From Mytilus galloprovincialis (taxonomy: Eukaryota > Mollusca > Bivalvia > Mytilida > Mytilidae): 64,000 nucleotides of DNA. The stretch spans positions 39,150,458 to 39,214,457 of the forward strand of contig NC_134842.1 of NCBI RefSeq assembly GCF_965363235.1, written 5' to 3'. Within the stretch, counting starts at the first letter, position 1; each line of letters opens with the position of its first letter. The notes beneath the pieces are model-generated. The model did no database searches, had not been told where the DNA came from, and saw only the letters and a program-made list of their open reading frames with translations. The position numbers and the translations under genes are program-made. Shown here in pieces: positions 36,862 through 64,000 of the stretch.

Positions 36862-38057
36862 AAGGTGACCTGTTTTCTAACACTTCAAACACATAATTGA
36901 CCTGTTTTCTAACACTTAAAACACATATTGTTATTCTAATTACTTCCCTGTGAAAATTTAGATTACTCCAATTTCTGGTTATTACGATAACCTCATGTCC
37001 ATGACTTTTGACTTGTGTATCTTTTGCCCGACCTATAATGTTCTCCTTCCATACAATTGTATGTTCATTCGTTTCAAAAATTATTCAAAATGCATTCTTA
37101 AATTTCAATTAGTTATGGAAAGTATTACACAAGTTGAATATGATCGGTGATATCTTCCATTAACCAAATCTAATTCAAATAAAGATAGTCCTTTTTTTTT
37201 GGGGGGGGGGGGGGGTTCAGCCGAATGATTACGTTATCTCTTCATTGCAGGTAAAGAGACATGGGCCTCCTTTACACAATTCCATCCTCCGTTTTTGTCA
37301 TTGAATTTCATTATATATGTATCTGTTTTAGTACAACAACAGTATGACAGATGACTGATAAAGGGTATGATTGTTTTTGAAGATATAAGTTATTTGTTGG
37401 CTCGGCATTTGATTTAAAATAGTGATTATATCAAAATCTTATATGCAGATAGAGACCCAGAATACATAGTTGAACCATCAAAATGCATATATGAGAATAG
37501 AAATAACCGAATTAAATTGCTTATTTCTTTGTAAATGTTACAGACTTATATTCTACGGTTGAATGTAGCTGCTGTAAATTAATTAACAGAAGAGACTTTT
37601 ATCAGTGGTATCAATTATGTTGTACATTTGTTCAAGGGTTCATCAATTGCATGAATAATTAGGATTACATGTTCCATCACACAATCTATTATTACTTTTG
37701 TCAAATTATATAAACTTGCATATGCTGAAATTCTTATCTTTGGTTTCTTTATAAGCAGTGAAATACACATGATAGATGTTGCATCGTTCTGATAATGCTA
37801 TGCCACTCTGGATGGATTTAAAAAAAAAATTTCATCAAGCATCAGATTAAACTGTATATAAAAAAAATTACCAAAGGTACCAGGCTTGTGATACACATGA
37901 CTCATCATAGACGAACGAATCAAAACAGTTGTAAGGCCAAATTTATCTAAACATAGTATATCAAGGAAGTATTTCAAAATAATTATACATTAGGAAATAA
38001 TTCTCTGGTTTCGACGTCCTTTCCGTTTTGAAATAGCACATTTCACAAAATGTTCAG
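36862..38057 (+). repeat. Upstream flank of TLR1, duplicated at 49349-50794
   Basis: Starts at 'gaaggtgacctgttttctaa' (36862) and matches 49349 onward at roughly 90% or better up to the TLR-A start codon. Holds an internal 32-bp tandem duplication and a T8G14 run near 37195. Common upstream sequence of the TLR-A copies, so it likely carries their promoter and 5'UTR. Confidence 0.9.
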
Positions 38058-40784
38058 ATGTCGGTTTTATTGATAAAATGTATTTGTATTATACTGTGCA
38101 TGGCATATGGATATAATGTCTTCTGCCTTACGAAAGAAATACGATGTGGAAAATATAAAGAATGCATATGTAAAGGGGAAAATGCAACGTGTTCATTATT
38201 GCATTATATTCCGTCGTTGCCACGAAAAATAGCCAAATTAACATTGAAAAATAACACTCTAACGTTGATCAATCAGAGTGCTTTTAGGAATATTTCTTCA
38301 ATCAAACTCAAGACACTATGGTTTGAGAACAATTCAATTGAAACAATACAAGATGATGCATTTTATGATTTCAAAGTTTTAACTAATCTAAATATAACGA
38401 ACGAAAAGTTTTTGAATGTAACATCATTAAAATTTTCGTTCAAGAGTTTGAATAGTACCACCATTCAAAAGTAAACTTTAGAGAACAACGATTGGAATGC
38501 GATTCCGGATGATATGTTTTCTTATTTATTGGTAGATATTATCTGTATGTCGCTAAACAACAATTTATTCCAAGAACTAAATTCAAGTGTTTTTCTACCT
38601 ATACGAAGCCTACGTAAACTGTTTATCCAGAAAAATGAAATTGTGTTTGTCGATCTTAACGGTCTAATCACAACTGAGATTCTGGATTTATCAAATAATA
38701 ACATTTATGCAATACCTAATTTTTGTAAAGAAAACAATAGAACGTTTGTTTCGCAGCTGAAAAACTTGTCACTTGCATACAATAGTATACGGCAATTTTC
38801 TAAAGAATCCTTTAGATGCCTAGACAATCTTTTATTATTCATCTGATTGTTAATCTGAATTTTGGTGAAAATTGACAATTTTTGACTAAATTTTTTTTTT
38901 AAAGAAAAAAAAAAAAACACACGACTTTCTTTTTATTTTCTGAATATATAGAATGTGGTCTTTCAAAATTTGTCAATGACATGTCATGGTATTGTTGGTC
39001 TTGGGAGATAAACAGATTTAAAATTTTAAAGTTTTTGAAATTTTTCATTTTCGAATTTTAACACATTTTAAATGGTTGCTATGGAAACAAACTATTTAGT
39101 AAATTCACAATTTTAACGTTTTTGTATAGTTTGGGGTTTTGTTTGTCAATACTGTAAATATACATATCCTTTGTATTGATTAACTTTATTTCTATGGGAC
39201 TTTAAATTCCCTTATTTTATATTTTCAAAAAGGGTCTTTTTTCACATATTCAGGCAAAATGTTGATTTGATGGTTACCATGGCAACGGGCATAATACAGG
39301 GAAAATAAAGACAGAATTTTGACCATCTACCAAAGTTCTTATGATATAGGGCAAAAAAAATTACTTCTGTGACATGCCATGAATCACCTTCTGCATGATT
39401 TTTACAAAGACCGGTACTTAAGTATCTGAATCTGGACGGAAACCGTGTCCGACGCTTAGGTGATAATGTCTTTGGATTATTAAATAGTATAAGAAGACTT
39501 TCAATAGGAGTTAACCAGCAGCTGGAACATATTGCCTCATTTGCATTTAATAGTTCATCGCTACAAGTTCTACGTTTGCATCGAAATCATTTCCGATTTA
39601 GTAAAAGAAAACTCAAGAGAGAGGATTTTAATCCGTTATTGACTTTTGGAACTATTCCAAATTTGAAAGAATTAGATTTATCTAACAACCATTTAAAGGA
39701 TTATGTGATACTGGGAAAACTTTTTTTATCTACAAGAAATATTAGAAAACTTAATTTAGCCTCGACACTTGTAAAAACAATCCCAGACGGATTTTTACAA
39801 AACATGCCATACATTAAATTGTTGAATTTACATGGCAATGAACTAGAAACGTGAAATGCATCAATTTTTAAAAATTTGTCTTCCATGCGTGAGTTGTATC
39901 TTGACGGAAATAATATACATGTTATAAACGAAAAGTCTTTCCCATCATACTTATTAAAATCTGTAAAAGTACTTGAATTATCCGGTAATCAAAATCGATG
40001 TACATGTGAGATTAAATGGTTTTTAGATACAATTCGATCAACAAACTTATCAATTAAAATGCACAAAAATTGGCCAAAGTATTACACATGCCACTATCCA
40101 GATGATCTACGAAAATCACTACTTGCAGATTATTTTCCAACGACAGCAGAATGTAATCCTTTGAACATTGTGTCAATTATAATAATAGCTGCATGTTCGT
40201 CTGTTTTGATTTTACTTTTCTGTGTCCTAATGACCTTCAATTGCCAGATAAACCTTGAAAATGTGCTTTACCTGTTTCGTTTAAAAAAGCGCATGAAAAG
40301 TGGGAACTTTAGTCTTGAATCGTCAGATGATTTTGAGTTTGACGCGTTCGTTGTTTATTGCGATGCCGATCGCCTATGGGTCCATGGCGTTCTACTGAAA
40401 CGATTGGAAAATGCTCACCTTAATATTTGTGTACATCATAGGGATTTTGATGTCGGTGACACAATCATCAACAATATTGGAAAATATATGGAGAAAAGTT
40501 GGAAGATAATAGTTGTTTTGTCTAATAACTTTGCTAAAAGCGAATGGAGTCAATGGGAGGTTGATCTTGTACAAGAGCGGAGGCGCCGACAGGGAAAAGA
40601 GGTTTTGATATTAATCATGTACCAACAGATTGATTCGAAACACATGATTACACCACTAAAGACATTACTCGACACAACGCCTTATTTATCATATAAGGAA
40701 GGGTTTGGCGAGTATTTGTTTTGGAATGCTGTCATTAAAGACATTAACAAACCTTTGAATATTCCACCAACTTCTATTTTCTAA
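38058..40784 (+). pseudogene. TLR1: broken Toll-like receptor, A type
   Basis: Type I membrane receptor of innate immunity. ATG 38058 gives a signal peptide (MSVLLIKCICIILCMAYGYN), a Cys-rich N cap and leucine-rich repeats, then LRRCT (RCTCEIKWFLDTIRS at ~40000), one membrane helix (IVSIIIIAACSSVLILLFCV, ~40170) and a TIR domain (~40335-40760) with box 1 FDAFVVYC, box 2 RDFDVGD and an FW near the end. TLR3 is its closest relative. Broken by an in-frame TAA at 38472-38474, a ~588-bp insertion (38832-39419), and a TGA at 39852-39854. The 3' piece from 39876 stays open for 302 codons and could still make a membrane-TIR protein if transcribed. Stop TAA at 40782-40784. Confidence 0.92.
38832..39419. 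mobile_element. 588-bp insertion within TLR1, two RFX X-box motifs
   Basis: Absent from TLR3, TLR2 and TLR4 at the same codon; CTT stands on both sides. Lacks GT..AG ends, so it is not an obvious intron. Contains GTTGCTATGGAAAC (39075-39088) and GTTACCATGGCAAC (39273-39286), both fitting the RFX X-box consensus. Class unknown. Confidence 0.75.
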
Positions 40785-41087
40785 AAAAATAAATGGATTA
40801 ATATTAAGCTTTGTTGTTTTGTAATCAGAAAACGAGTCACAAATTCGCTTTTGGTTTTCTGAAACACGTTTCAAGATCTATCCTCACATATCGTATCTTT
40901 AAAGTCTATCTTTTATTCTTTTTAAATTGGTGTTTTATTTCTGCGTCTTTGTCAAATTTATTTGTCTTTTGGTTGGATTTTATGGTCAGATGTGTTATAT
41001 GTCTGTTTACACGGTTTTGGCTTATTGGTCCCATTCATTGCCCCATTTACTAATAATGTCTGTTTGGGCAGTTTACCCATTATTGCC

Positions 41088-41093
41088 AATAAA
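41088..41093 (+). terminator. AATAAA, likely TLR1 poly(A) signal
   Basis: In 'ccaataaaacgataaac', ~300 bases after the stop; the TLR3 counterpart is at 53113-53118. Another AATAAA at 40788 is almost on the stop codon and less likely. Confidence 0.45.
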
Positions 41094-41480
41094 ACGATAA
41101 ACACCTGTCATTCATTCAAGTGGGATGTTTACCTTACTTTAAAACCAATGGCATACTAAATGAAATAAAATAAAGAACAGTTAACATGTGTGAGTACATC
41201 AGAGAAACAATGAATATTTTTATACTGTCAATCAAAAAAATCTAATGTTTTGAAAAGTAATATTGAATAATTACATTTTCAAAAGAATGTAATTAATTGC
41301 TTTCAAGAAGCTCAATTACACATTATTTCAAATATTTTGGAATTTTTAATTAGTTACATATAATTACTATAATAGCAATTTGAATAATACCAGCCCTGCT
41401 CATTTCATTAAATAATTCTATGAAAGGCCTATTTGTTTGAAGTATTCCCGTTGGTTTCCATTCGGTTGTAATAACATTCA

Positions 41481-41900
41481 ATAATTTAATTTTGGATGTA
41501 ACGCGTCTTCTGATTGGCTGACGTTGTTTAGTTTATCAGCTCATAGACATAATTTTGTCATGTGATCGTGACGTCATCAAAGTTTTTTCTTGATTTACTC
41601 CGGTTTTAAATTGATTTGATTTTTGGTGTTTTAACGGCACTATTAAGCACCGCATTTAGGCTATTTCGTGGTGGTCAGTTTTTATTGGTGGAGGAAGTCA
41701 TAGTGTTCGGACCGGTTTCAAATGGAATTAAGAATTTAAATATAAGAAATAACTGTAATGTTTTTTTTATGTCTTTACGAAATAACATCAGAAATGTGAT
41801 GCACGCTGAATAAACCGCGTAGCGTGTTATTTTAAAGTGTGCACCATATTTTTTATGTTATTTCGAATAGACAGAAAAAATATTGCAGTCATTCCTTAAT
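41481..41900 (-). mobile_element. Foldback element, copy 2, with nested insert
   Basis: Complement of the 27258-27556 element: 'ggatgtaacgcgtcttctga', 'gatcgtgacgtcatc' and the hairpin half 'tgttatttcgaatagacaga'. The middle (~41620-41735) carries an extra ~115 bp not in copy 1. Unit II shows the empty site near 53505 ('cattcaata' joined to 'gtcctttccgta'), so the insertion followed or escaped the segmental duplication. Confidence 0.83.
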
Positions 41901-41961
41901 TGGTATCCTTTCCGTATTCTCTTTGCTTTTTGTAGTTTTTTGCAATTCTACCGTTTTAATG

Positions 41962-44396
41962 AAAACTTACCAAGAAAAATGTGGTGCACACTTTAAAATA
42001 ACAGCTTTCTACAGTGTCTGTTTTTTTTTAATTGCCTTCTTTCCATTTCCAAGAAATCTTACATACATGTATGTGTATACAATTTTATTTTGAAACAAAA
42101 CAACAATGAAATATATAATAACAAAAATAATAATAATTCTTATTGTACTAAACACTACATCAGATAATTTTTGAGGATCAACTTATATGGTTTACACCCG
42201 AGTCAAACATAAGTTATCTCCCTTGAAATCAGATCACATTGTAGATGTCTGTATTGTTAGCCTACAATTATTGAAATCAGTAATCAAGAGTGTGTAATTT
42301 CACTTATTATAAAAAATATTTACCATGTACAGTCAATTACAAAAATTAGTTTTCAGAAATTGCAAACTTCTGTATCCCTTTCGGTATAAGGCTTTATTCC
42401 ATCAAAATAACAAAAATATTCGTATCTGGACATCAATGCAATGTTTTGTATGCAAATTTTTCAAAGACAGTATGTCGTTTTTGATCAGATTTTGAAATTA
42501 CTTTCCAACCCTACCACATCCTAATAAAAGGAGTAAAACTGTAAAAGAGAAATAGCTTTCTCATCTTTAAAATAGCAAACCAGAATTAAAACATGCGCTG
42601 CTAAATAGATTGAATCTTAATTAAGATTACATAAAAAAACTTTTGAATTTAAGTATTAGGACCTCTATATAACCTTTTAAGCGTATCAAACCAAAATCAT
42701 ACACCAGAACATTACTTAAAGTAAGTGTATTGTAATATATCAGATTGTATCACTAGTGCAAAATAAAGTTTCAAAACTTACCAAGAAAAATGTGGTGCAC
42801 ACTTTAAAATAACAGCTTTCTACAGTGTCTGGTTTTTTTTAATTGCCTTCTCTCCATTTCCAAGAAATCTTACATACATGTATGTGTATACAATTTTATT
42901 TTGAAACAAAACAACAATGAAATATATAATAACAAAAATAATAATAAGTCTTATTGTACTAAACACTACATCAGATAATTTTTGAGGATCAACTTATATG
43001 GTTTACATCCGAGTCAAACATGAGTTATCTCCCTTGAAATCAGATCACATTGTAGATGTCTGTATTGTTAGCCTACAATTATTGAAATCAGTAATCAAGA
43101 GTTTGTAATTTCACTTATTATAAAAAATATTTACCATGTACAGTCAATTACAAAAATTAGTTTTCAGAAATTGCAAACTTCTGTATCCCTTTCGGTATAA
43201 GGCTTTATTCCATCAAAATAACAAAAATATTCGTATCTGGACATCAATGCAATGTTTTGTATGCAAATTTTTCAAAGACAGTATGTCGTTTTTGATCAGA
43301 TTTTGAAATTACTTTCCAACCCTACCACATCCTAATAAAAGGAGTAAAACTGTAAAAGAGAAATAGCTTTCTCATCTTTAAAATAGCAAACCAGAATTAA
43401 AACATGCGCTGCTAAATAGATTGAATCTTAATTAAGATTACATAAAAAAACTTTTGAATTTAAGTATTAGGACCTCTATATAACCTTTTAAGCGTATCAA
43501 ACCAAAATCATACACCAGAACATTACTTAAAGTAAGTGTATTGTAATATATCAGATTGTATCACTAGTGCAAAATAAAGTTTCAAAACTTACCAAGAAAA
43601 ATGTGGTGCACACTTTAAAATAACAGCTTTCTACAGTGTCTGGTTTTTTTTAATTGCCTTCTCTCCATTTCCAAGAAATCTTACATACATGTATGTGTAT
43701 ACAATTTTATTTTGAAACAAAACAACAATGAAATATATAATAACAAAAATAATAATAAGTCTTATTGTACTAAACACTACATCAGATAATTTTTGAGGAT
43801 CAACTTATATGGTTTACATCCGAGTCAAACATGAGTTATCTCCCTTGAAATCAGATCACATTGTAGATGTCTGTATTGTTAGCCTACAATTATTGAAATC
43901 AGTAATCAAGAGTTTGTAATTTCACTTATTATAAAAAATATTTACCATGTACAGTCAATTACAAAAATTAGTTTTCAGAAATTGCAAACTTCTGTATCCC
44001 TTTCGGTATAAGGCTTTATTCCATCAAAATAACAAAAATATTCGTATCTGGACATCAATGCAATGTTTTGTATGCAAATTTGTCAAAGACAGTATGTCGT
44101 TTTTGAGCAGATTTTGAAATTACTTTCCTACCTTACCACATCCTAATAAAAGGAGTAAAACTGTAAAAGAGAAATAGCTTTCTCATCTTGAAAATAGCAA
44201 ACCAGAATTAAAACATGCGCTGCTAAATAGATTGAATCTTAATTAAGATTACATAAAAAAACTTTTGAATTTAAGTATTAGGACCTCTATATAACCTTTT
44301 AAGCGTATCAAACCAAAATCATACACCCAGAACATTACTTAAAGTAAGTGTATTGTAATATATCAGATTGTATCACTAGTGCAAAATAAAGTTTCA
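41962..44396 (+). repeat. 811-bp tandem repeat, three nearly identical copies
   Basis: Units 41962-42772, 42773-43583 and 43584-44396, each starting 'aaaacttaccaagaaaaatg' and ending 'gcaaaataaagtttc'. Units differ by only a handful of bases. A single diverged copy stands at the same place in unit II (53560-53808 continuing at 55284), so the triplication happened in unit I only. No coding. Confidence 0.97.
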
Positions 44397-44399
44397 AAT

Positions 44400-45300: not shown

Positions 45301-45354
45301 TACTGACCATAACATTACTTCATCAGAGGCAATAATTATTGTATGTTGTTTGTT

Positions 45355-45612
45355 TTGTTTTACAAGCGAAGTCAATTCTTTTCTATAATCACAGTCTTGT
45401 TACCACCAATGTATATCACTGATTGTCCTGGCTTAAATTAATATTAGATTTCTGCACGAGTTTTCTATGTTCCTTGTTCTGTTTTTTACAAGCGAAGTCA
45501 ATTCTTGCCTATTATCACAGACTTATTACCGCCCATGTATATCAGTGATTGTCTTGGTTTAGATTAATTTTAGATTTATTCAGACTAATTCCTTTGTTCT
45601 TTAGAACAATCC
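45355..45612 (-). repeat. 126-bp tandem copies of the U gene 3' end
   Basis: 'tacaagcgaagtcaattct' at 45361 and 45487 head two units that each include the complement of the last ~10 U codons, the stop and adjoining 3'UTR. The right-hand unit is the real end of U1. Confidence 0.85.
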
Positions 45613-46720
45613 TTAGTTGGAATTTAGGTTTCTTTTTCATTGGTTCGTTAAAGTCATTTTCAAGTTCAAAATTATCAGGCATGTCTGATTTAAGTTTCTG
45701 ATTTGTGCTTTTCTTTGTTCTGAGCGTATCCATTTGTTTAATAGCATTGTTGATCATCTGTAGAAAAATTTTGTCATGTCTTGCAGGACTTGTCTGTTCA
45801 AGTAGTGTCTGGGTTTGGTCTTGTTCAAGCAATTCAAGTTTTGTTGTTAATGACTGATGTGTGGATATCATTTTAAATTTCAATGGTTGCTTGTGAAATG
45901 ATCCCAATTTTAAAATCTGTGAGTCTCTCTGATAATCATCGGTAACAGATCCATTGAACTTTGAAACAGTTGCTTTACTTACAGTAACATTTTTCAAATC
46001 TTTATCAGTAACAACCTTCTCGTGCATGACCTTGACCTTTTTACCAAACTTTTTTAGAATGTATTGCCCAGGCTCTATTTTGTCAATCAGGATACATATA
46101 ATCTTGTTTGATTTAAACAGGACATAGGCAGGTTGAATTTTAGCAGATTCAAGTGAACTCTCCAGATCATCATAATATTGAGGCATATTTTCTCTTAATA
46201 ATCGTTTATCACTACCGTCAGTCATGAAGACCTGAATATCAGTCACTGTAGATGATGTTTTATCGGAACTTCCAGAAAGAACAGTTAGTCCTTGACAATA
46301 CCTAACAACAGATGGATGAAAATTTCTGTGATCAATGAACTGATTTGGAGTGCTGGTTGTGCTTGTATCTGAATCTGAAGGTTCTGTACTGACATTGTTA
46401 AACATGTCATCTTCAGATTGTTCCGTTGATAAAGAGATGACTGATGTCTGACTGTTTGTTTGGGAGATAGAGGTGGTAGATAATGAAATTACAGACTTTT
46501 GACTCTCAGTGTATTCAGTCGAAGAGCACAACTCCTGAGATTGAGATGGTTCTACTGACTGTGAGTAAGGTGTCTGGTTTTGAGACATTTTCTTTTCTGT
46601 TGGGCTTTTTGCCCCACTCACGCTTTGGTCAACAGATGAGTTACTCTTCCCTATGATGTGTTGGTCAGCTATAATTTGTGATTTATTGAAAAATTGTAAT
46701 TGTGTATGCAGTAGATCCAT
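45542..46720 (-). CDS. U1: orphan gene, 392 aa, between TLR-A and TLR-B
   Basis: Not recognised. ATG at 46720, TGA at 45542. No signal peptide and no membrane segment, so likely intracellular. Residues 1-130 are low-complexity, rich in Ser, Thr and Gln, with a doubled VISLST (77-82 and 93-98) and an acidic QSEDDMFNN. Residues ~136-290 look ordered (PSVVRYCQGLTVLSGSS, YVLFKSNKIICILIDKIEPG, KVKVMHEKVVTDKDLKNV). The C-terminus is basic, with MKKKPK resembling a nuclear import signal. A conserved AG (46755-46754) 33 bases upstream of the ATG, with a pyrimidine tract, suggests a spliced 5'UTR; U2 has the same. It runs against the TLR genes and is duplicated with them. Intact frame against a broken U2 suggests selection in at least one copy. 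Confidence 0.75.
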   Translation of the reverse strand: MDLLHTQLQFFNKSQIIADQHIIGKSNSSVDQSVSGAKSPTEKKMSQNQTPYSQSVEPSQSQELCSSTEYTESQKSVISLSTTSISQTNSQTSVISLSTEQSEDDMFNNVSTEPSDSDTSTTSTPNQFIDHRNFHPSVVRYCQGLTVLSGSSDKTSSTVTDIQVFMTDGSDKRLLRENMPQYYDDLESSLESAKIQPAYVLFKSNKIICILIDKIEPGQYILKKFGKKVKVMHEKVVTDKDLKNVTVSKATVSKFNGSVTDDYQRDSQILKLGSFHKQPLKFKMISTHQSLTTKLELLEQDQTQTLLEQTSPARHDKIFLQMINNAIKQMDTLRTKKSTNQKLKSDMPDNFELENDFNEPMKKKPKFQLRIVLKNKGISLNKSKINLNQDNH

Positions 46721-46859
46721 ATCTTCCTACTTTTAAATCAGCTCTCTTGAGTTCTGAAAATAAACCTTATATTTGCAGAGATTATACATATGGTGCTACA
46801 CTTTAATTTCATTGTGCTAAATATTCACTTGGGGTGTAATTTCTATTTGATAATGATGG

Positions 46860-46965: not shown

Positions 46966-47104
46966 ATCCTCAGTATCACGAATAAATCATAATTTTGCAA
47001 ACAGTTAATTTATAAAAATGACAGATGTACGTAATTATGAAGAGATCAACTATCACAGGTACGAATATATATAAAAAAAACCTGAAGTATCAAGGAAGTT
47101 TTAT

Positions 47105-48934
47105 GATTTTGAATATATTGCCGAGCTTAGAATAACAAATGAGAAGTTATTAAACATTACATCGTTGAAATCTTCGTTTCAAAGTTTGACTATTGGAACT
47201 ATTCGAAGATTGTATTTAGAAAAAAAACGATTGGTTTGGTCTTGCGGATGACATGTTTTATCATTTGGTAGGAGCTAATATCGCTTTGTCGCTTAGAAAA
47301 AATTTATTACACAAACTAAATTCAAGTATATTTCTACCAATAGCAAATCTAAAGAAATTACAGGTTGAAGAAAACGAAATTGTGAATGTAGATTTAAACG
47401 GTCTTACGACAACTGGGTTTTTGGATTTATCAAATAATAATATTTATGCAATACCTAATTTTTGTAATAACAGCGACGAAACATTTGTTCCGAAACTGAG
47501 AAATTTGTCACTTGCATGCAATGCTATAAGGAAAATTTCAAAAGAATCTTTCAAATGCCTGGATTCTTTAGAGTCTCTAAATTTGGATGGGAATCGTTTT
47601 CGAAGCTTGGATAATAATATCCTCGCATCACTACATAACTTGGCGAAACTTATCATAGGGGATAATCAGCAATTGAAAGACATTGCTCCGTTCGCATTTA
47701 ACAGTTCGTCATTACAGAAGCTACATTTGTACCGGAATAATTTTCGATTTAGTAAGAAAAAAATAAAGGATAAACAATTCAATCCGCAAACGATTTTTCA
47801 AACAATACCAAATTTGAAAGAATTGGATTTATCTCACAACCATTTAAATGACTTTTTTATATTTCGAGAACTGTTTGCGTCTACACGGAATATTCAAAAA
47901 CTTACTTTAGTTTCGTCAGATATAACGACAATTCCAGATGATTTGTTCCGAAATATGCCGCACATTAAATCGTTGAATTTAGAAGGAAATGAAATAGAAC
48001 GGTGGAGGGAATCACTCTTCGATAATTTGCCGTCAATGCGTGAATTATATCTTGATGGAAACAATATTCACGTTATTAACGAAACGTCGTTTCCATCAAA
48101 TTTATTAAAAACTTTAAAAGTACTAGAATTATCTGGTAATCAATTTCGATGTACGTGTGAAATAAAATGGTTTTTGGACACAATTCGATCAACGAATCTT
48201 TCAACAAAAATGCGGAAAAATTGGCCGAGTCGTTATACTTGCTACTATCCGGAACATCTCCGATTAACCCTTCTTGCAGATTACTTTCCAACAATTGCAG
48301 AGTGTAATACGTTAAACATTGTCTATCTGATAATAATTACTGCATGTTCGTCTGTTTTGATTTTGCTTTTCTTTGTCATAATAACGTTCCAATGTCAGAT
48401 AAATTTTAAGAATGCACTGTACTTATTTCGGTTAAAGCAACGTATGAAACGTGGGTACTTAAGTCTTGAATCTTCAGATGATTATGAGTTTGACGCGTTC
48501 GTTGTTTATTGCGATGCCGATCGCCTATGGGTCCATGGCGTCCTGCTTAAACATCTAGAAAATTGTAACCTTAATATTTGTGTACATCATAGGGATTTTG
48601 ATATCGGAGAGCCAGTCCTTAACAATATTGGAAAATATATGAAGAAGAGTTGGAAGATCATCGTTGTTTTGTCTAATAACTTTGCTAAAAGCGAATGGTG
48701 TCAATGGGAAATTGCCCTTGTACAAGAACGGAGGCGCCGACAGGGACAAGAGGTTTTGGTATTAGTTATGTACCAACAAATTGATTCGAAACACATGATA
48801 ACTCCACTAAAGGATTACTCGACACAACGCCTTATTTGTCATATAAGGAAGGGTTTGGGGAGTCTTTGTTCTGGAATGCCGTTGTTAAAGACATTAACAA
48901 ACCTTTGGATATACCTCCAACATCTATTTTCTAA
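47105..48934 (+). pseudogene. TLR2: decayed Toll-like receptor, B type
   Basis: Closest to TLR4. The promoter-side flank 'ctgaagtatcaaggaagttt' runs straight into codon ~100 of the receptor: 391 bp holding the start codon, signal peptide and first repeats are missing relative to TLR4. One extra A in an A run near 47220 shifts the frame, and one base lost near 48813 shifts it again within the TIR domain, so the last ~45 residues, including the FW of box 3, are replaced. Between the shifts 47253-48938 is open for 561 codons: ~12 leucine-rich repeats, LRRCT, membrane helix and TIR boxes 1 (FDAFVVYC) and 2 (RDFDIGEP). The in-frame stop of the family is at ~48932-48934. Confidence 0.9.
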
Positions 48935-49014
48935 ATAATAGAATCGATGTTATATGTTTCTGTTTCTTTCTATTATTGCAACCCAGCAATGCTGCGATAT
49001 CAACTTCATCAAAA

Positions 49015-49274: not shown

Positions 49275-49348
49275 ATTTATTTTCTAGATTAAAGTTTAAC
49301 ATATAATTACGCTAAACAAAGTGAATTACCAGACGTCAATTTGGCTGA

Positions 49349-50794
49349 AGGTGACCTGTTTTCTAACACTTCAAACACATAATTGACCTGTTTTCTAACA
49401 CTTAAAACACATATTGTTATTCTAATAAATGGGAAAATTTAGATTACTCCAATTTCCGGTAATGACGATAACCTCATGTCCATGACTTTTGACTTGTGTA
49501 TCTTTTGTCCGACCTTTAATGTTCTCTTTCCATACAATCGTATGTTCATCCGTTTCAATAATTATTTAAAATGCATTCTTAAATTTCAATTAGTTATCGA
49601 AAGTATTACCTCAAGTTGAATATGATCGGTAATATCTTCCATTAACCAAATCTAATTCAAATAAATATAGTCCTTTTTTGGGGGTGTCCAGCCGAATGAT
49701 TTCATTGCAGGTAAAGAGACATGGGCCTCCTTTACATAATTCCATCCTCCATTTTTGTCATTGAATTTCATTATATATATATGTATCTGTTTTAGTACAC
49801 TAACAGTATGACAGATGACTGATAAGTATAGATTATCGGGTTGTCTACACATTGATATCGTAAAATATCAGCCGCGAGCCACAATGTGAACCTTTTTGGC
49901 GAGTGAGCGTAGCAATTATTAATGGTCTTTTTTCCTCTCCCTAAGACAGTTTTACGCTGGACGAAAGCAAGCTTGATAACGTCTCCTCTCGCATTGTGAC
50001 GTCGCTGATAACTTCTCCTCTCACATTGTGACGTCGCTGATAATGCCTGGTCTCGTTTTGAAGTCTTGATACGAGAATTACTGAGCGACAGAGCAGGGTG
50101 ATAAAGGGTATGATTGTTTTTGAGGATATAAGTTATTTGTTGGCTCGGCATTTGATTTATAGTAGTGATTATATCGAAATCTTAGATGCAGAAAGAGACC
50201 CAGAATACATCAAAATGCATATATGAAAATAGAAATAACCGAATGAAATTGCTTATTTCTTCGTTAATGTTATAGCCTTATATTCTACGGTTGAATGTAG
50301 CTGCTGTTCATTGATTAACAGAAGCGATTTTTTTCAGTGGTATCAATTATGCTGTCCATTTATTCAAGGGTTCATCAATTGCATGAATAATTAGGATTAC
50401 ATGTTTAATCACTCCACCCGATTCTTACTTTTGTCAAATTATATAAACTTGGATATGCTGAAATTCTTATCTTTGGTTTCTTTATAAGCAGTGAAATACA
50501 CATGATAGGTGTTGCATCGTTCTGATTATGCTATGCCACTCTGGATGGATTTAAATAAAAAAAAAACTTTCATTAAGCATCAGATTAAACTGTGTATAAA
50601 AAACTCACCAAAGGTACCACGCTTGTGATACACATGACTCATCATAGACGAACGAATCAAAACAGTTGTAAGGCCAAATTTATCTAAACATAGTATATCA
50701 AGGAAGTATTTCAAAATAATTATACATTAGGAAATATTTATCTGGTTTCGACGTCCTTTCCGTTTTTAAAATAGCACATTTTAAAAGTGTTCAG
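49349..50794 (+). repeat. Upstream flank of TLR3, paralogous to 36862-38057
   Basis: Same order of unique words as the TLR1 flank up to the start codon. Longer by ~250 bp, chiefly because of the 279-bp insertion at 49825-50103. Confidence 0.9.
49825..50103. mobile_element. 279-bp insertion with TGATA target duplication
   Basis: TGATA at 49820-49824 and 50099-50103 bracket sequence that is absent at the paralogous point in unit I (~37362). Contains a doubled 32-bp word ('gataacgtctcctctcgcat'... at 49975 and 50008). Ends show no clear inverted repeat; class unknown. Confidence 0.8.
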
Positions 50795-52974
50795 ATGTCT
50801 GTTGCCATGATAAAATGTAGTTGGATTATACTGTGCATGGCATATGGATATAATGTTTTCTGCCTTACGAAAGAAATACGATGTGGAAAACATCAAGAAT
50901 GTATATTTAAAGGGGAAAATGCCACCTGTTGTAATTTTCATTATATTCCGTCGTTACCACGAAACATAACCAAATTAACAATTATATTCCGTCGTTACCA
51001 CGAAACATAACCAAATTAACATTGAAAAATAACACTCTAACGTTGATCAATCAGAGTGCATTTAGGAATATTTCTTCAATCAAACTCAAGACACTATGGT
51101 TTGAGAACAATTCAATTGAAACAGTTCAAGAAGATGCATTTTATGATTTCAAAGTTTTAACCGAACTAAATATAACGAACGAGAAGCTATTGAATAAAAC
51201 AGCATTGAAATATTCATTCAAGAGTTTGCCTTTTAACACCATTAAAAAGTTGTGTTTAGAGAACAACGGCTGGAATAAACTTCCGCGGGACATGTTCGAA
51301 GTTTTATCAAAAGCTAATATTTCCATTTCGCTTAAAAACAATTTATTGACAGAACTATCTTCAAGTGTTTTTTTACCAATTAGGAACCTACAGACACTAC
51401 TTATTGAAGGAAATGAAATTTTATTTGTCGATCTAAATGGTCTTAGTACAACTGAATATCTGGATTTATCAAACAATAACATTTATTCAATACCGGTTTT
51501 TTGTAAAAACACCAACGAAACACTTGTCCCGAAGTTGAAATACTTGTCACTTGCATACAATAGTATACGGAAATTTTCAAAAGAATCCTTTAGATGCTTA
51601 GGCAATTTAAAGGATCTTAATCTTGATGGAAACCGTATTCGAAGCTTGGGTGATAATGTTTTTGGGTTATTGAATGGTATCAGAAGACTTTCAATAGGAG
51701 TTAACCAGCAGCTAAAACATATTTCTCCGTCTGCATTCAATAGTTCATCGTTACAGATTCTACGATTGCATCGAAATCAATTTCGTTTTAGTAAAGGACA
51801 AATCAAGAAAAGAAGTTTCGATCCGTTTAGGATTTTTCGAACTATTCCAAATCTGAAAGAATTGGATTTATCTAACAACCATTTAACAGATTTTGATATA
51901 ATGAAAAAATTGTTTTTATCCACACGGAATATACGAAAACTTTATCTAGCATCGACAGGTATAAAAACAATCCCAGATGGATTTTTGCAAAAAATGCCAA
52001 ATATTGAATTGTTGACATTACATGGGAATGAACTAGAACTGTGGAAGGCATCAATCTTCGAAAACGTGTCTTCATTGCGCGAGTTGTATCTTGACGGAAA
52101 CAATATTCATGTTATAAACGAAAAGTCTTTCCCATCACAATTATTGAAATCTTTAAAAGTTCTAGAATTATCCGGTAATCAATATCGATGCACATGCGAA
52201 ATAAAATGGTTTTTAGATACAATTCGATCAACAAATTTATCAAGTAAAATGCACAAAAATTGGCCAAAGTATTACAAATGCCATTATCCAGATAATCTTC
52301 GAAAATCACTACTTGCAGATTATTTTCCAACCACAGCAGAATGTAATCCTTTGAACATTGTGTCAATAATAATAATAGCTGCATGTTCGTCTGTTTTGGT
52401 TTTGCTTTTCTGTGTCCTAATGACCTTCAATTGCCAGATAAACTTTAAAAATGCGCTTTATCTGCTTCGTTTAAAGAAACGCATGAAAAGTGGGAACTTT
52501 AGTCTTGAATCGTCAGATGATTATGAGTTTGATGCGTTCGTTGTTTATTGCGATGCCGATCGCCTATGGGTCCATGGCGTTCTTCTGAAACAATTGGAAA
52601 ATTCTCACCTTAATATTTGTGTACATCATAGGGATTTTGATGTCGGAGACACAATCATCAACAATATTGGGAAATACATGGCGAAAAGTTGGAAGATCAT
52701 AGTTGTTTTGTCTAACAATTTTGCTAAAAGTGAATGGTGTCAATGGGAGATTGACCTTGTACAAGAGCGGAGGCGCCGACAGGGAAAAGAGGTTTTGGTT
52801 TTAGTAATGTACCAACAGATTGATTCAAAACACATGATAACTCCACTAAAGGCATTACTCGACACAACGCCTTATTTGTCATATAAAGAAGGGTTTGGCG
52901 AGAATTTGTTCTGGACTGCTGTAGATAAAGACATACACAAACCTTTGAATATTCCACCAACTTCTATTTTCTAA
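50795..52974 (+). CDS. TLR3: Toll-like receptor, A type, split by a 41-bp duplication
   Basis: ATG 50795; stop TAA 52972-52974. The first 72 codons give signal peptide and N-cap Cys cluster; the remaining 650 codons, open from 51022, give ~16 leucine-rich repeats, the LRRCT (RCTCEIKWFLDTIRSTNLSS, ~52190), a membrane helix (IVSIIIIAACSSVLVLLFCV, ~52360) and a TIR domain (~52515-52940) with FDAFVVYC, RDFDVGD and LFWTAVDKDI. The two parts are out of frame because 50940-50980 is repeated exactly at 50981-51021. With only one 41-bp copy the receptor would be continuous at ~708 residues, ordinary for a TLR with a single LRRCT. Could be a null allele, a new pseudogene or an assembly slip; everything else looks under selection. 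Single exon. Confidence 0.85.
50940..51021 (+). repeat. Perfect 41-bp tandem duplication inside TLR3
   Basis: 'attatattccgtcgttacca'... at 50940-50980 and again, identical, at 50981-51021. TLR1 has a single copy at the same codon. Confidence 0.97.
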
Positions 52975-53808: not shown

Positions 53809-55283
53809 GGTGTCTTCAACCTATGCCAACATTTGATAAAAATATATTCAACCTATGCCTACAAACAAAATACAATAGGTGTTGTTATAACAATTATTAC
53901 TTAATGAAAGGTAAAACACAGTCAGTATATTTAAGCATTAAATGTTACTCTTTAAAAATTCAGAAAACAAAAATAAAGTATTTGTAAATTTGTGTTGAAT
54001 TAAAAATGGAATTATTAAAAAGATTCTACATAGACAAAAATTGAAAAATAGAAATTTTTATAATTTTTTTTTTCTTCATTATTTTGTTAAATTCAATATG
54101 AAGCAAATTTCAACAAGCAACAACATATACAAATATAACATACTTCAACAGAAACTTTTTTTAAATCATATTAATTTTGCAATATAGAAATTAAAATAAA
54201 TATAGTAAAAAAAAAATTTGGTCCATTTATACATGTTATAGGCAGCAACTTTCCAGTGGGAAAGTGCACTATTCATATACTTGATTTTAGTTTAGAAAAT
54301 TCATGTACTCCGTGTTTGTTTTAATGCCCCATTTAAGGGCTTTATGTGTCTGGTCTGTGCGTCCGTCCGTCAGTCCTTTCGTTTGTTCGTTTGTCCGTTT
54401 GTTCGTCCTTCCGTCCGTCCGTTTGTTCGTTCGTTCGTCGGTTCGTTCGTTCGTTCGTTCGTTCGTTCGTTCGTTCGATCGTTCGTTCGTTCGTCCGTCT
54501 GTTCGTCTGTTCCGCTTCAGGTTAAAGTTTTTGGTCAAGGTAAATTTTAATGAAGTTGAAGTCCTATCAACTTGAAGCTTAGTACACATATGTTCCCTAT
54601 GATATGATCATTCTAATTTTTCTGCCAAATTACAGATTTTATCTCTTTTTCACGGTCCACTGAACATAGAAACAGAGACTCAATAATAACATGCCACCAG
54701 TTGATTGTGCAGATGCAGTATCATATCGCACAGTGTGACTTTTGAGGGTCTTATTCTCTGTAGGTGTTGAAATTATTTGTGAACATTTAAACAAGATATT
54801 TAACATGAGTCAGAATTTATGAAATACATGAGTTTCAATAGTGTTGTATGTCATTGTATCTGAAGGAATCTATTTTACTTAAAATTTAATATTTTTATCA
54901 TATATTTTTATATTAGTAATGAGAATGACACTGATAGATATTTAATATGTCTAGATGATTGTTCCTTAAATAAAAAAAAATCATGAAATCTTTTTTCACC
55001 CATTATTTCATTATATTAATTTTAAACTAATTCCTTTATGAAATAGAGATCATCAACACATTCAATTACCTACATTTTCACTAGTACTTGTAAAAAAAAT
55101 TGCATATCAAGTATACTTTAACGATAGATTTAAACTGGTTGTATATTAATTAGCCCCTAATCAATTTATGTTTTTAAAACACTTAATCTGTAACAAATTA
55201 TTCAATCTATGCCAACATTTTTTCACACAATTTTATACCCAATTTTCAAAATGTTGGCATAGGTTGAATGAACCAAAATAACC
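53809..55283. mobile_element. 1.5-kb insertion with TTCAACCTATGCC inverted ends, 8-bp TSD
   Basis: TGGTTGAC at 53801-53808 and 55284-55291; the paralogous sequence in unit I (near 42190) runs through uninterrupted. TTCAACCTATGCCAACAT near the left edge is complementary to ATGTTGGCATAGGTTGAA near the right edge; the outermost ~10-20 bp match poorly. An 8-bp duplication suits hAT-like elements, but no transposase is seen. A microsatellite repeat is nested inside. Confidence 0.72.
54305..54680 (+). repeat. Repeat with TTCG/TCCG tetranucleotide array
   Basis: 'aatgccccatttaagggctt', then ~35 units of TTCG or TCCG (54359-54510), then 'ttcaggttaaagtttttgg' and 'cttagtacacatatgttccc'. The Arg/Thr/Asn/Glu- and Val/Arg/Ser-repeat frames on the two strands are artefacts. 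Confidence 0.9.
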
Positions 55284-56081: not shown

Positions 56082-56326
56082 AAAAGAAGATGTGGTATGA
56101 TTGCCAATGATACAACTGTCTACACGAGACCAAAATGACACAGACATTAACAACTATAGGTCACCGTACGGCCTTCAACAATGATCACAGCCCATACCGC
56201 ATAGTCAGCTATAAAAGACAATGTAAAACAATTCAAACGAGAAAACTAACGGCCTTATTTATATAAAAAAAATGAACGAAAAACAAATATGTAACACATA
56301 AACAAACGACAACCACTGAATTAAAT
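56082..56326 (+). repeat. M1 repeat inserted in the U2 3' repeats
   Basis: 'gaagatgtggtatgattgcc', 'ctataggtcaccgtacggcc', 'ccataccgcatagtcagcta', 'aattcaaacgagaaaactaa' and 'aaatatgtaacacataaaca'. Sits between 'caagcgaa' and 'attcttttctgtaatcac', words that adjoin in the undisturbed unit. Confidence 0.9.
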
Positions 56327-56650
56327 TCTTTTCTGTAATCACAGTCTTGTTACCACCAATGAATGTCACAGATTTTCCTGTTTTTAATTAATTTTAGACT
56401 TCTGCACGAGTATTGTATGTTCCTTGCTCTATTTTACAAGCGAAGTCAATTCTTGTCTATAATCACAGTCTTGTTACCACTAATGTATATCACTGATTGT
56501 CCTGGCTTAAATTAATTTTAGATTTCTGCACGAGTTTTCTATGTTCCTTGTTCTGTTTTACAAGCGGAGTCAATTCTTGTCTATTATCAAAGTATTGTTA
56601 CCAACAATGTATATCACTGATTGTCCTGGCTTAAATTAGTTTTAGATATC
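56326..56650 (-). repeat. ~125-bp tandem copies of the U2 3' end
   Basis: Units headed by 'caagcgaagtcaattct' or variants near 56437 and 56563, plus one broken by M1 at 56066/56326. Each carries the complement of the U stop region ('tatatcactgattgtcctgg'). Confidence 0.82.
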
Positions 56651-57786
56651 TTCTGACTATTTCCTCTATTCTTTAAAACAATCCTCAGTTGGAATTTAGG
56701 TTTCCTTTTCACTGGTTCATTAAAGTCATTTTAAAATTCATCCAAATTGTCATTCATGTCTGATTTAAGTTTCTGCTTTCTGCCTTTCTTTGTTGTGACA
56801 GTTTGCATTTGTTTTACAGCGCTGTTGATCATCTGTAGAAATATTTGGTCATGTTTTGCAGGACTTGTCTGTTCAAGTAGTGTCTGTGTTTCTTCTTGTT
56901 CAAGCAATGCAAGTTTTGCTGACAATGACTGATGTGTGGATATCATTTTAAGTTTCAGTTGTTGCTTGTGAAATGATCCCAATATCAAAATCTGTGATTC
57001 CTTCTGATTATCATCGGTAACACATCCGCTGAAGTTTGAAACAATTGCTTTACTAACAGTAACATTTTTCAAATCTTTATCAGTAACAACCTTCTCGTGC
57101 ATGACTTTCACTTTCTTACCAATTTTCTTCAGAATATATTGACCAGGCTCTATTTTATCAACCAGTATACATATAACCTTGTTTGACTTCAACAGGACAT
57201 AGGAAGGTTAATTTTTAGCAAATTCAAGTGAACTCTCCGGATCATATTGAGGCATATTTTCTGTTGATAATCGTTTATCACTACCGTCAGTCTTTAGGAT
57301 CTGGATATCAGTCACCGTGGATGATGTTTTTTTGGAACTCCCAGTAAGAACAGTAAGTTCTTGGCAATATCTAACAACAGATGGATAATAATTTCTGTGA
57401 TCAACGAACTGATTCGGAGTATTGGCTGTGCTAGTTTCTGAATTTGAGGATTCTGTGCTGACGTTGTTAAACATGTCATCTTCAGATTGTTCTGTTGATA
57501 AAGAGATGACTGATGTCAGACTGTTTGTTTGGGATATAGAGGTGGTAGATAGTGAAATTACAGACTTTTGACTATCAGTGTATTCAGTCGAAGAGCACAA
57601 CTCCTGAGATTGAGATGATTCTACTGACTGTACGGATGGTGTCTGGTTTTGAGACATTATCTTTTCTGTTGGGCTTCTTGTCGCACTCACGCTTTGGTCA
57701 ACATATGAGCTACTCTTCCCACTGATGTTTTGGTCAGCTGTTGGTGATTGATCGAAGAACTGTGAGTGTGCAAGTAGTAGATTCAT
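56614..57786 (-). pseudogene. U2: decayed paralogue of U1
   Basis: ATG at 57786. Aligns with U1 from end to end (MNLLLAHSQFFDQSPTADQN at the start, VISLSTTSISQTNS, PSVVRYCQELTVLTGSS, ICILVDKIEPGQYILKK, KVKVMHEKVVTDKDLKNV). One in-frame TAA stands after ~192 codons (57208-57210, CAA in U1) and another near 56731 before the basic tail; the sequence beyond still matches to a TGA at 56614. The upstream splice acceptor is kept. Decay is mild, so loss is recent. Confidence 0.82.
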
Positions 57787-57859
57787 ATCTTTCTATTTTT
57801 GAATCAGCTGTTTGAGTTCTGGAAATAAACATTATTTTGCAAAGATTATACATATGGTA

Positions 57860-58140
57860 CTACAAATTAATTTCACTGTGCCCAATATTCACTTGGGATG
57901 AACTTTCTATTTGATAATGGTAAAACTATTTTTCTTATCGATAGAAATATGGAATCATCTGAGTTAGCCTTACAGAAACCTGTAACAGAAGAGAGAGTCT
58001 GAAAGTAAGACAAATATGTAGGAACAATTTTCTCTGTATAATTTTTATTCGTTTTATAAGAGGGGTCAAAAGCATATATATTGTTTTTGAATATAGTAGA
58101 CCATAAACATATGATATATTAAAATTTGCATTAAATTTCC
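57860..58140. other. No gene seen
   Basis: AT-rich. Open frames on the minus strand between 57935 and 58730 are repeat-derived. Confidence 0.45.
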
Positions 58141-58147
58141 TTAATAT

Positions 58148-58848
58148 AATAAAATTAATGGTACCAATTTTCTTGCACCAGATGCGCATTTCGACAACAC
58201 ATGTCTCTTCAGTGATGCTCGTGGCCAAAATATTTGAAATCCAAAGCTTATATAAAAGATGAAGAGCTTTAATCCAAAAGGTCCAAAAAGTATAGCCAAA
58301 TCCGTGAAAGGAATCAGAGCTTTGCATGAGGGAGATACATTCCTTAATTTAAAATAATTTCTAATATTTTGTAACAGCAAATTTTAATAACACAAAAAAT
58401 CCGTATTTTCATGCCAGTACCGAAGTACTGGCTACTGGGCTGGTGATACCCTCGGGGACTAATAGTCCACCAGCAGAGGCATCGAGCCAGTGGTAGTAAT
58501 AAAATTAACGGTACCAATTTTCTTGCACCAGATGCGCATTTCGACAATACATGTCTCTTCAGTGATGCTCGTGGCCAAAATATTTGAAATCCAAAGCTTA
58601 TATAAAAGATGAAGAGCTTTAATCCAAAAGGTCCAAAAAGTATAGCCAAATCCGTGAAAGGAATCAGAGCTTTGCATGAGGGAGATACATCCCTTAATTT
58701 AAAATAATTTCTAATATTTTGTAACAGCAAATTTTAATAACACAAAAAATCCGTATTTTCATGCCAGTACCGAAGTACTGGCTACTGGGCTGGTGATACC
58801 CTCGGGGACTAATAGTCCACCAGCAGAGGCATCGACCCAGTGGTAGTA
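58148..58848 (+). repeat. M5 repeat, 350-bp tandem pair
   Basis: 'ggtaccaattttcttgcacc' at 58160 and 58510; both units contain 'agatgcgcatttcgacaa', 'ggtccaaaaagtatagccaa', 'gtaccgaagtactggctact' and end 'gaggcatcgagccagtgg'. Under ten differences in 350 bp. Confidence 0.95.
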
Positions 58849-58944
58849 ATATAAATTACGTTTCAATTTGCAAAGATACCGTTGTCAGACCAATGATCAA
58901 TAGATTTCACGTGTTTCCCTTTTTGTATACATTATTATTTTTAG

Positions 58945-60185: not shown

Positions 60186-60189
60186 TACA

Positions 60190-61135: not shown

Positions 61136-61139
61136 TAAT

Positions 61140-62143
61140 AGTTTACGTTAGCAACGTCACTACCTCCCCTGTACCTGTATCGTACGCCCTTAAACAGTCT
61201 TTTACTGATTGTGACTATTTTCATCACATTTAAAATTGAATAATGTTATTGTATTTACTTCCGTGAGAAAAATATATTATTCTACTTTTCTGTAAGCAAT
61301 GGTTAACTTAATTTCCTTATACAAAACATTTCGAGCCGGAAAATAAATCAGTCACATTTGGACATCTCTTATTTGAAACTATGACCATCATCTTCTTATA
61401 TACATGATCGTCCTGAAATACCGACAAGTATAGATTTACTCCTTCAGTCTAGTATACAGTATGCTCATTATTAGTATCATTCAATTCAAATTAATAAAAG
61501 AAATAAAAGTTCGATTTAAAAGCAGAACATTTACACGCATAAAATTACAATATTAGGTCAATGTAAGAAACTCATCTTTTTTTATAGAATGTGTAGAAAA
61601 TGGGCTCGGGAAATGCAAGTATCTTTATTTTATAAAGAAGTTTAAGCTTAATTTGAATGCAAAACGTTCACGCGCATACAATTACAACATATATATAAGG
61701 TCAATGTAAAAAGCTCATCTTTTTATATGCGGTTTAGAGGCTAGGCTTGGAAAAGGCGAGGTCACCAAGCCCTTAAACAGTTTTAAATCAAAGAAATATA
61801 CTTTTTGCCAGTTTAGATTTTTTTTTTGGTATACAAGTGCTTATTTTTGCAAACTGCAGAAGTATGTATAAACATGCATTGCTTGGGTTTGCTGATAGAA
61901 ATCAGTGTTAATAGAATTCAAAAGAATATTTATATTCATGTAGCCAATGAAATAGAAGGTCACCAAGTATTCAAAAGAGTTGAAACATGTATGTAGTTAT
62001 GAAGAGATCAACTATCACAGGTCCGAATATATAAAAAACTGAAGTATCAAGGAAGTTTTTTCCAATACTAATGTACCGGGAAGAACTGTTTTGGTTTCAT
62101 TATCCTTTCCATTGTTATATAGCACTTTGTAATGTAAAAAACA
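61140..62143. other. Upstream region of TLR4
   Basis: No gene seen. The last ~140 bases share 'atgaagagatcaactatcac' and 'ctgaagtatcaaggaagttt' with the TLR2 flank at 47037-47104, so this is the B-type 5' flank. Confidence 0.5.
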
Positions 62144-64000
62144 ATGTCAAATGTAAAGTTAAACTATGTTTGCATTTTAATCTGTTTTACCGTTGGATAT
62201 AATGACTTCTGCTGTGCGAATGAAAATTCACGGAAAAAATATACTGAATGCAAGTGTATAAAAGCAACAGCTACCTGCTCTGGTTTGAAGTATATCCCGA
62301 AGCTGCCACCAAACATTACGAAATTAATATTGAAAAATAACATTCTTACGGTGATCAATCGGAGTAGTTTTAGAAATATTTCCTCAGTCAACATCAAGAA
62401 ATTATGGTTCGAGAATAATTCAATGGAGATAATTCAAGTTGATGCGTTTTATGATTTTGAATATATTGCCGAGCTAAGAATAACAAATGAGAAGTTATTA
62501 AACATAACAGCGTTGAAATCTTCGTTTCAAAGTTTGACTATTGGAACTATTCGAAGTTTGTATTTAGAGAAAAACGATTGGTATGGACTTGCGGATGACA
62601 TGTTTTATCATTTGGTAGGAGCTAATATCGCTTTGTCGCTTAGAAGAAATTTATTACACAAACTAAATTCAAGTATATTTCTTCCAATAGCAAAACTTAA
62701 GAAATTACAGGTTGAAGAAAACGAAATTGTGAATGTAGATTTAAACGGTCTCACAACAACTGGGTTTCTGGATTTATCAAATAATAATATTTATGCAATA
62801 CCTAATTTTTGTAATAACAGTGATGAAACGTTTGTTCCGAAACTGAGAATTTTGTCACTTGCATACAATGCTATAAGGAAAATTTCAAAAGAATCTTTCA
62901 AATGCCTGGAAACTTTAGAGTCTCTAAATTTGGATGGGAATCGTTTTCGAAGGTTGGATAATAATATCCTCGCCTCACTTCATAACTTGGCGAAACTTAT
63001 CATAGGGGATAATCAGCAGTTGAAAGACATTGCTCCGTTCGCATTTAACAGTTCGTCTTTACAGAAGCTACATTTGTACGGGAATAATTTTCGATTTAGT
63101 AAGAAAAAAATAATCGAAAAAAAATTCAATCCGCAAACGATTTTTCAAACAATACCAAATTTAAAAGAATTGGATTTATCTCACAACAATTTAAATGACT
63201 TTTTTATATTTCAAGAACTTTTTGCGTCTACACGGAATATACAAAAACTTACTATAGTTTCGTCAGATATAACGACAATTCCAGATGGTTCGTTCCGTAA
63301 TATGCCGCACATCAAATCGTTGAATTTAGAAGGAAATGAAATAGAACGATGGAACGAATCACTCTTCGATAATTTGCCGTCCATGCGTGAATTGTATCTT
63401 GATGGAAACAATATTCATATTATTAACGAAACGTCGTTTCCATCCGACTTATTTAAATCACTAGAGGTACTAGAATTATCCGGTAATCAATATCGATGTA
63501 CTTGTGAAATAAAATGGTTTTTGGACACAATTCGATCAACAAATCTTTCAACAAAAATGCAGAAAAATTGGCCGAGTCGTTATACTTGCTACTATCCGGA
63601 ACATCTGCGATTGACCCTTCTTGCAAATTACTTTCCAACAAATGCAGAGTGTAATTCGTTAAACATTGTCTATCTGATAATAATAACTGCATGTTCGTCT
63701 GTTTTGATTTTGCTTTTCTTTGTCATAATGACGTTCCAATGTCAGATAAATTTTAAGAATGCACTGTACTTATTTCGGTTAAAGCAACGTATGAAACGTG
63801 GGTACTTTAGTCTTGAATCGTCAGATGATTACGAGTTTGACGCGTTCGTTGTTTATTGCGACGCCGATCGCCTATGGGTCCATGGCGTTTTGCTAAAACA
63901 TCTAGAAAATTGTAACCTTAATATTTGTGTACATGATAGGGATTTTGATGTTGGAGAGCCAATCCTTAACAGTGTTGGAAAATACATGGCGAAAAGTTGG
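62144..64000 (+). CDS. TLR4: intact Toll-like receptor, B type, cut by window end
   Basis: Open for 619 codons from ATG 62144 to the last base; no stop. Order: signal peptide (MSNVKLNYVCILICFTVGYN), N cap with Cys residues (CKCIKATATC), ~16 leucine-rich repeats from ~62300 (LWFENNSM, LYLEKNDW, LDLSNNNI, LNLDGNRF, LDLSHNNL, LNLEGNEI, LYLDGNNI, LELSGNQY), a single LRRCT (RCTCEIKWFLDTIRSTNLST, ~63490), membrane helix (YLIIITACSSVLILLFFVIM, ~63668-63727) and the first ~65 residues of a TIR domain with FDAFVVYC (~63837) and RDFDVGEP (63938-63961). BB loop lacks the usual Pro. One exon. Many NxS/T sites in the ectodomain. The only undamaged TLR in the window, so it is the best template for the family; the last ~80 residues lie beyond the edge. 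Confidence 0.95.
   Translation, partial: MSNVKLNYVCILICFTVGYNDFCCANENSRKKYTECKCIKATATCSGLKYIPKLPPNITKLILKNNILTVINRSSFRNISSVNIKKLWFENNSMEIIQVDAFYDFEYIAELRITNEKLLNITALKSSFQSLTIGTIRSLYLEKNDWYGLADDMFYHLVGANIALSLRRNLLHKLNSSIFLPIAKLKKLQVEENEIVNVDLNGLTTTGFLDLSNNNIYAIPNFCNNSDETFVPKLRILSLAYNAIRKISKESFKCLETLESLNLDGNRFRRLDNNILASLHNLAKLIIGDNQQLKDIAPFAFNSSSLQKLHLYGNNFRFSKKKIIEKKFNPQTIFQTIPNLKELDLSHNNLNDFFIFQELFASTRNIQKLTIVSSDITTIPDGSFRNMPHIKSLNLEGNEIERWNESLFDNLPSMRELYLDGNNIHIINETSFPSDLFKSLEVLELSGNQYRCTCEIKWFLDTIRSTNLSTKMQKNWPSRYTCYYPEHLRLTLLANYFPTNAECNSLNIVYLIIITACSSVLILLFFVIMTFQCQINFKNALYLFRLKQRMKRGYFSLESSDDYEFDAFVVYCDADRLWVHGVLLKHLENCNLNICVHDRDFDVGEPILNSVGKYMAKSW

Follow-up and report, generated by a model that had tools for sequence, protein, structure and literature searches.

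The window, a 64,000-nucleotide stretch of mussel DNA (C5:39150458-39214457, from a searched genome of 1.385 Gb in 331 contigs), carries from position 36844 onward an array of Toll-like receptor (TLR) genes of two types, A and B, together with copies of an orphan gene, U. The gene order is TLR1-U1-TLR2 followed by TLR3-U2-TLR4-U3-TLR5, in which U and A are convergent and U and B head-to-head, the latter arrangement occurring in three units. A third U and a fifth TLR lie beyond the window and are given in window-equivalent positions. The features of the locus are as follows:

34459..34634, possible trace of the 3' flank of an A-type TLR, from an older fourth unit (68% to 64762-64938, E 1.3e-5, 4 kb against 25 kb)
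34850..35181, minus strand, U relic (DNA 69% to U3; protein match to U3 at E 4.8e-14 in a 3-kb search; one TGA, one TAG, six TAA)
36844..38057, unit 1 A-type 5' flank (88-92% to 49330-50736)
38058..40784, plus strand, TLR1 (A type), pseudogene (TAA at 38472, 591-bp insert at 38829-39419, TGA at 39852)
41962..44394, 811-bp segment in three tandem copies, 98.6-99.4% identical, in the TLR1-U1 interval of unit 1
45542..46720, minus strand, U1, orphan, open frame of 392 aa
47019..47102, remnant of the B-type 5' flank and junction of the deletion that removed the TLR2 start (87% to 61981-62059, then a jump to 62446)
47098..48938, plus strand, TLR2 (B type), pseudogene (lacks its start and the first ~100 codons; one TAG; altered frame close to the C-terminus)
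49330..50794, unit 2 A-type 5' flank (BLASTN between units)
50795..52974, plus strand, TLR3 (A type), ATG present, frame broken (perfect 41-bp tandem duplication at 50940-51021)
53809..55283, sequence inserted in unit 2, as judged against units 1 and 3 (unit-by-unit BLASTN)
56731..57786, minus strand, U2, pseudogene (in-frame TAA at 57208-57210 and 56731-56733; homology to U1 runs on to 56411)
62144..64000 in the window, plus strand, TLR4, full length, 712 aa, with a B-type body and an A-type tail (stop at 64280-64282, outside the window)
66857-68032 (window-equivalent), U3, open for 392 codons without the start codon of U1
71579-73717 (window-equivalent), TLR5, full length, 712 codons, following U3

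Tandem duplication of a TLR segment carrying U

We compared the window with itself and then the last 94 kb of a joined 164-kb sequence, to which 40 kb upstream and 60 kb downstream had been added. Segments 36844-48940 and 49330-64287 are collinear on matching strands, non-coding flanks included (window self-BLASTN and unit-by-unit BLASTN), with the following blocks and BLASTN identities:

36844-37361 / 49330-49825, 88%
37356-38828 / 50099-51606, 85% (upstream part 37356-37999, 92%)
39420-40795 / 51610-52983, 89%
40961-41483 / 52991-53506, 75%
41903-42195 / 53507-53808, 75%
44949-45370 / 55619-56076, 78%
45337-46864 / 56411-57928, 87%
47098-48653 / 62446-64000, 94%

The blocks take in the TLR 5' flank, the interval between TLR and U, U and the sequence on either side of it, and a portion of the U-TLR spacer; between units, flank identity is 88-92% upstream of the first TLR and 75% downstream. 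Collinear head-to-tail copies that extend into non-coding sequence mark a tandem segmental duplication, and we regard the duplication of a TLR segment with the orphan gene aboard as confirmed. The earlier note had read the same three genes twice, in the same order and on the same strands with shared flanks, and the alignment outside the TLR coding parts bears this out. Its spacing of ~12.7 kb from TLR start to TLR start agrees with unit starts at 36844 and 49330, 12.5 kb apart. Its count of two units falls, as three U copies and five TLRs are present once sequence past 64 kb is included; the two-unit reading was an effect of the window edge, beyond which U3 and TLR5 follow. In the U1-TLR2 spacer the U 5' flank extends to 46864 and the B 5' flank survives as 84 bp, the two being separated by sequence that is repeated elsewhere in the window, and A-U-B order is therefore common to both units.

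The U protein also matches 34828-35235 with eight stops (E 2.7e-14, genome-wide search), which bears out the U relic that the note had placed at ~34.9 kb, the mark of an older unit. The similarity at 34459-34634, which lies in the same order relative to the U relic as in the units, is suggestive only of an A-type 3' flank. A tblastn search (E ≤ 1) of the 78 kb preceding position 38000 turned up no TLR match, and hence no TLR relic beside that of U; on this side U was sought by the genome-wide search only, and that search returned the relic. On the other side, the stretch from 74.0 to 124.0 kb window-equivalent yielded neither another TLR nor another U. About 38 kb beyond TLR5, at window-equivalent 111.5-123.2 kb, lie three tandem copies of a TRIM-like gene (73-74% identical) with weak B-box and NHL matches, one of each above cut-off.

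The sequence examined contains several other repeats. Unit 3 has a single stretch homologous to the 811-bp segment of unit 1. Tandem two-copy duplications occur at 32351-32848 (248 bp, 99%) and 58147-58858 (350 bp, 98%). A 45-bp unit repeated 11 times at 12870-13362 carries on its minus strand a 161-aa open frame built of 15-residue repeats, and a repeat family of ~500 bp is present at 1691-2656 and at 7250-9494, in tandem at the second place.

TLR copies and the mosaic TLR4

No intact A-type TLR is present at the locus: TLR1 has stops and an insert, and TLR3, which retains a hydrophobic stretch after its ATG, has a frame-breaking duplication. TLR4 and TLR5 combine the LRR ectodomain and intracellular TIR domain of a Toll-like receptor, with matches to LRR_8 (E 6e-43 and 4e-38, respectively) and TIR (E 3e-16 and 2e-17) above the Pfam cut-offs. 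A hydrophobic stretch between LRR and TIR was seen in the translations by eye, as was one cysteine-containing cap ahead of it in both proteins; the LRRCT model is absent from their Pfam matches at E ≤ 0.01. According to the available part of its description, the single-cysteine-cluster TLR type has an LRR ectodomain, a TIR domain, one transmembrane region and one LRRCT next to the membrane (PMC8609888). TLR4 and TLR5 are likely working receptors, and by analogy with other TLRs would detect a microbial or damage ligand with their LRRs and signal through TIR-adaptor contacts.

A genome-wide search with the window's part of TLR4 returned at least 73 TLR rows, a lower bound for a large family, of which six fall at this locus and represent its five genes. 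None of the 67 rows listed elsewhere in the genome exceeds 44% identity to the query. In vertebrate TLRs, a proline usually precedes the glycine of the TIR BB-loop. Among 30 loci taken from these rows, a pattern search found the BB-loop in 23 and missed it in seven; 22 of the 23 read RDFxxG without a proline before the glycine, the exception being L025 (RDFEPG), and in L030 the proline stands one place earlier.

The earlier note had labeled the fourth TLR as B type, which fits its body and fails at its 3' end. Diagnostic sites were those with one letter common to TLR2 and TLR5 and another in TLR3 (TLR1 not used). Up to 64108, TLR4 shows the B letter at 259 of 287 such sites (15 A, 13 neither), and from 64195 to the stop it shows the A letter at nine of nine. 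With stricter sites, at which TLR1 also agrees with TLR3, the counts are 154 of 168 B (eight A, six other) and then five of five A. TLR4 is thus a B/A mosaic with a switch between 64109 and 64194, the pattern of a chimeric TLR formed by ectopic exchange, and its A-type part takes in the final 29-57 codons together with the 3' flank next to them. The switch is slightly blurred: four A letters (63962, 63985, 63990 and 63994) precede the last B letters. Only nine coding sites carry the A-type call, and the remaining evidence is the 3' flank, where 57 of 62 sites are A, two B and three other. Because the corresponding flank of TLR2 and TLR5 is unrelated sequence (40-46% in alignment), identity is the better measure there than site counts. 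Over the TLR4 tail (64150-65104), 924 of 952 positions are identical to TLR3 (97.1%), compared with 88.2% between U2 and U3 (Fisher p 6e-14) and 88.4% between TLR4 and TLR5 up to the junction (p 3e-16).

Protein-level constraint on the orphan gene

A protein search of the genome with U1 gave four matches at E ≤ 0.001, all at this locus (U1, U2, U3 and the relic). Small indels upstream of a methionine that all three copies share (codon 45 of U1, 44 of U3) suggest that translation may start there. U3, which has lost the start codon of U1, is at most a candidate working gene. Across 346 codons from the common methionine, U1 and U3 show 49 synonymous differences (217 sites) and 71 non-synonymous ones (821 sites; dS 0.27, dN 0.092; dN/dS 0.34, Fisher p 1.3e-7), and comparisons with U2, in two pieces, gave dN/dS of ~0.27-0.51. 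When 120 substitutions were placed on one copy in a neutral simulation, stops averaged 4.9 and the frame stayed open in 0.6% of 5,000 runs. Together, the substitution ratios and the simulation indicate that U, a fast-evolving gene, was protein-coding for much of the period since duplication; it was under protein-level constraint, and 'junk' is not the right label.

No profile match above cut-off places U in a known family. The best Pfam match had E 0.6 for U1, with none for U3; the best NCBIfam match had E 0.015 for U1 (14.6 bits against a cut-off of 275), again with none for U3; and the best match in a PDB profile search had E 0.68. From a shallow alignment, AlphaFold2 produced no usable model (mean pLDDT 33 over the full length, 35 over residues 125-340). 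The first 125 residues are rich in serine, threonine and glutamine (59 in U1 and 62 in U3). U1 and U3 each contain two VISLS motifs, which we take to resemble SUMO-interacting motifs. A 124-bp tandem repeat at 56324-56651 consists of U C-terminal codons and 3' sequence, and similar repeats follow U1 and U3.

Several other ideas about U were set aside. A viral or phage origin was rejected, there being no match in a phage collection and no relative in IMG/VR, where one pattern match was not confirmed. SQ/TQ sites are not enriched: the 11 in U1 and nine in U3 were reached by 417 and 1,288 of 5,000 shuffles, respectively. A stop-containing match at C9:46814851 (E 0.04), 17.6 kb from a TLR row, was considered as an ancient second U-TLR pair; it was rejected because U1 scored 34.7 bits (tblastn) and U3 gave nothing there at E ≤ 10, whereas a true relative would be equidistant from both. 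The reversed U1 core used as a control gave one hit (E 5.9), and the C9 match is better than that single control; matches on C3 (E 3.2) and C2 (E 9) are at about control level.

History of the array and the place of U

Synonymous divergence by the Nei-Gojobori method is 0.23-0.36 between TLRs of the same type (T1b/T3 0.27, T1a/T3 0.30, T4/T2 0.23, T4/T5 0.34, T2/T5 0.36) and 0.20-0.35 between U copies. Between A and B TLRs it is 0.57-0.77 over eight pairs, of which T4/T3 and T4/T1b are underestimates because they include the A-type tail. This excess indicates that the split between A and B predates the duplication of the segment. U1, U2 and U3 are equidistant (88.2-88.7%), and the U 3' flank of unit 2 matches that of unit 3 at 94.5%, with 84% identity to unit 1. 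Such non-uniform divergence requires more than one exchange, whose order is not fixed.

The locus is very probably a birth-and-death TLR array, in which a segment of A-TLR, U and B-TLR, present in three units and one old relic, was reshaped by ectopic exchange. In the simplest history A-U-B was present three times, and a fusion linked the unit 2 B gene with the unit 3 A gene. The segment, ~11-12 kb long, multiplied by segmental duplication, and we infer that those two genes joined near their 3' ends to give the hybrid TLR4. To its left TLR4 occupies the place of a B gene and to its right that of an A gene, and unequal exchange producing a B/A fusion would explain both. The higher identity of its tail calls for units 2 and 3 to have exchanged sequence again later, which would have homogenized the interval from the junction towards U. 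Most TLR copies have since decayed.

A distinctly less probable history takes the ancestral unit to be TLR-U only, with TLR2 as an extra truncated B copy and the TLR4 tail as a conversion by TLR3. It would account for the position of TLR1, TLR3 and TLR4, each preceding a U and sharing homologous 3' flanks, and for the fading of high identity from the tail (97.1%) through the U 3' flank (94.5%) to U (88.2%). However, B-type 5' flank sequence is common to the U1-TLR2, U2-TLR4 and U3-TLR5 spacers, which places the B gene within the duplicated segment, and ~60 bp past the stop that TLR2 and TLR5 share are missing from TLR4.

Within the three-gene segment, U was probably a passenger with a function of its own; it would have been copied most likely for its position, and its function is not known to involve TLRs. 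The suggestion of a functional three-gene module finds no support, with no intact A TLR, the 5' end of TLR2 lost and two stops in U2. We consider it unlikely that U works with these TLRs as a functional partner and has stayed next to B through co-regulation or interaction. The head-to-head arrangement of U and B in three units, the constraint on U as a protein and its confinement to this locus in this genome (E ≤ 0.001) speak for a partnership, but at the same threshold U accompanies none of the at least 67 TLR rows elsewhere, which make up 67 of the 73 listed. The U2-TLR4 spacer measures 4.4 kb and the U3-TLR5 spacer 3.5 kb, with patchy homology of 72-81%, which gives no sign of a compact shared promoter; the Pfam, NCBIfam and PDB profile searches found no domain tying U to TLR signaling; and a broken U2 stands beside an intact TLR4 at a locus without an intact A gene. 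More doubtful still is that U is a lineage-restricted protein acting together with the adjacent B-type TLR, perhaps as a nuclear or cytoplasmic regulator of its output; if so, the array would be a co-inherited receptor/regulator module in which B/A fusion re-assorts the receptor half.

A haplotype duplication or assembly artefact, to which the near-identical tracts might point (the 41-bp perfect repeat, the 811-bp triplication at 99% and the 97% tail), is highly improbable, as the array lies inside a 103-Mb contig and divergence between the blocks of the first two units is 6-25%, more than alleles differ in mussels, with different insertions and stops.

Expansion of bivalve TLRs by tandem duplication has been described, and the birth-and-death array shares with those families, in the available part of the source, a lineage-specific tandem growth; the segment here differs in carrying a non-TLR gene and a B/A mosaic receptor (PMC12521104). 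The mammalian TLR1/TLR6 tandem pair, as far as the available text describes it, likewise shows adjacent TLR paralogs swapping sequence by gene conversion (PMC2077338). Unlike that case, the exchange here, near the C-terminus, carried along a 3' flank that has no relation to those of the other B copies, so that TLR4 looks more like a fusion than the product of conversion alone. Sea urchin Sp185/333 clusters, in the parts available, are immune clusters with segmental duplications, deletions and repeats, but of a different protein family (PMC5103432, PMC3091723). Neither the locus nor U was recognizable from titles and abstract openings in the open-access literature, a scope that cannot establish novelty; the locus, the mosaic TLR4 and gene U may be unreported so far.

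The array is an example of known TLR family evolution, not a new kind of system. It offers a clear case of how an invertebrate TLR cluster evolves, in which a three-gene segment was duplicated, most copies decayed and a mosaic receptor was created. The orphan gene carried and constrained inside it now has a name, and its linkage to these TLRs is directly testable in other mussels.
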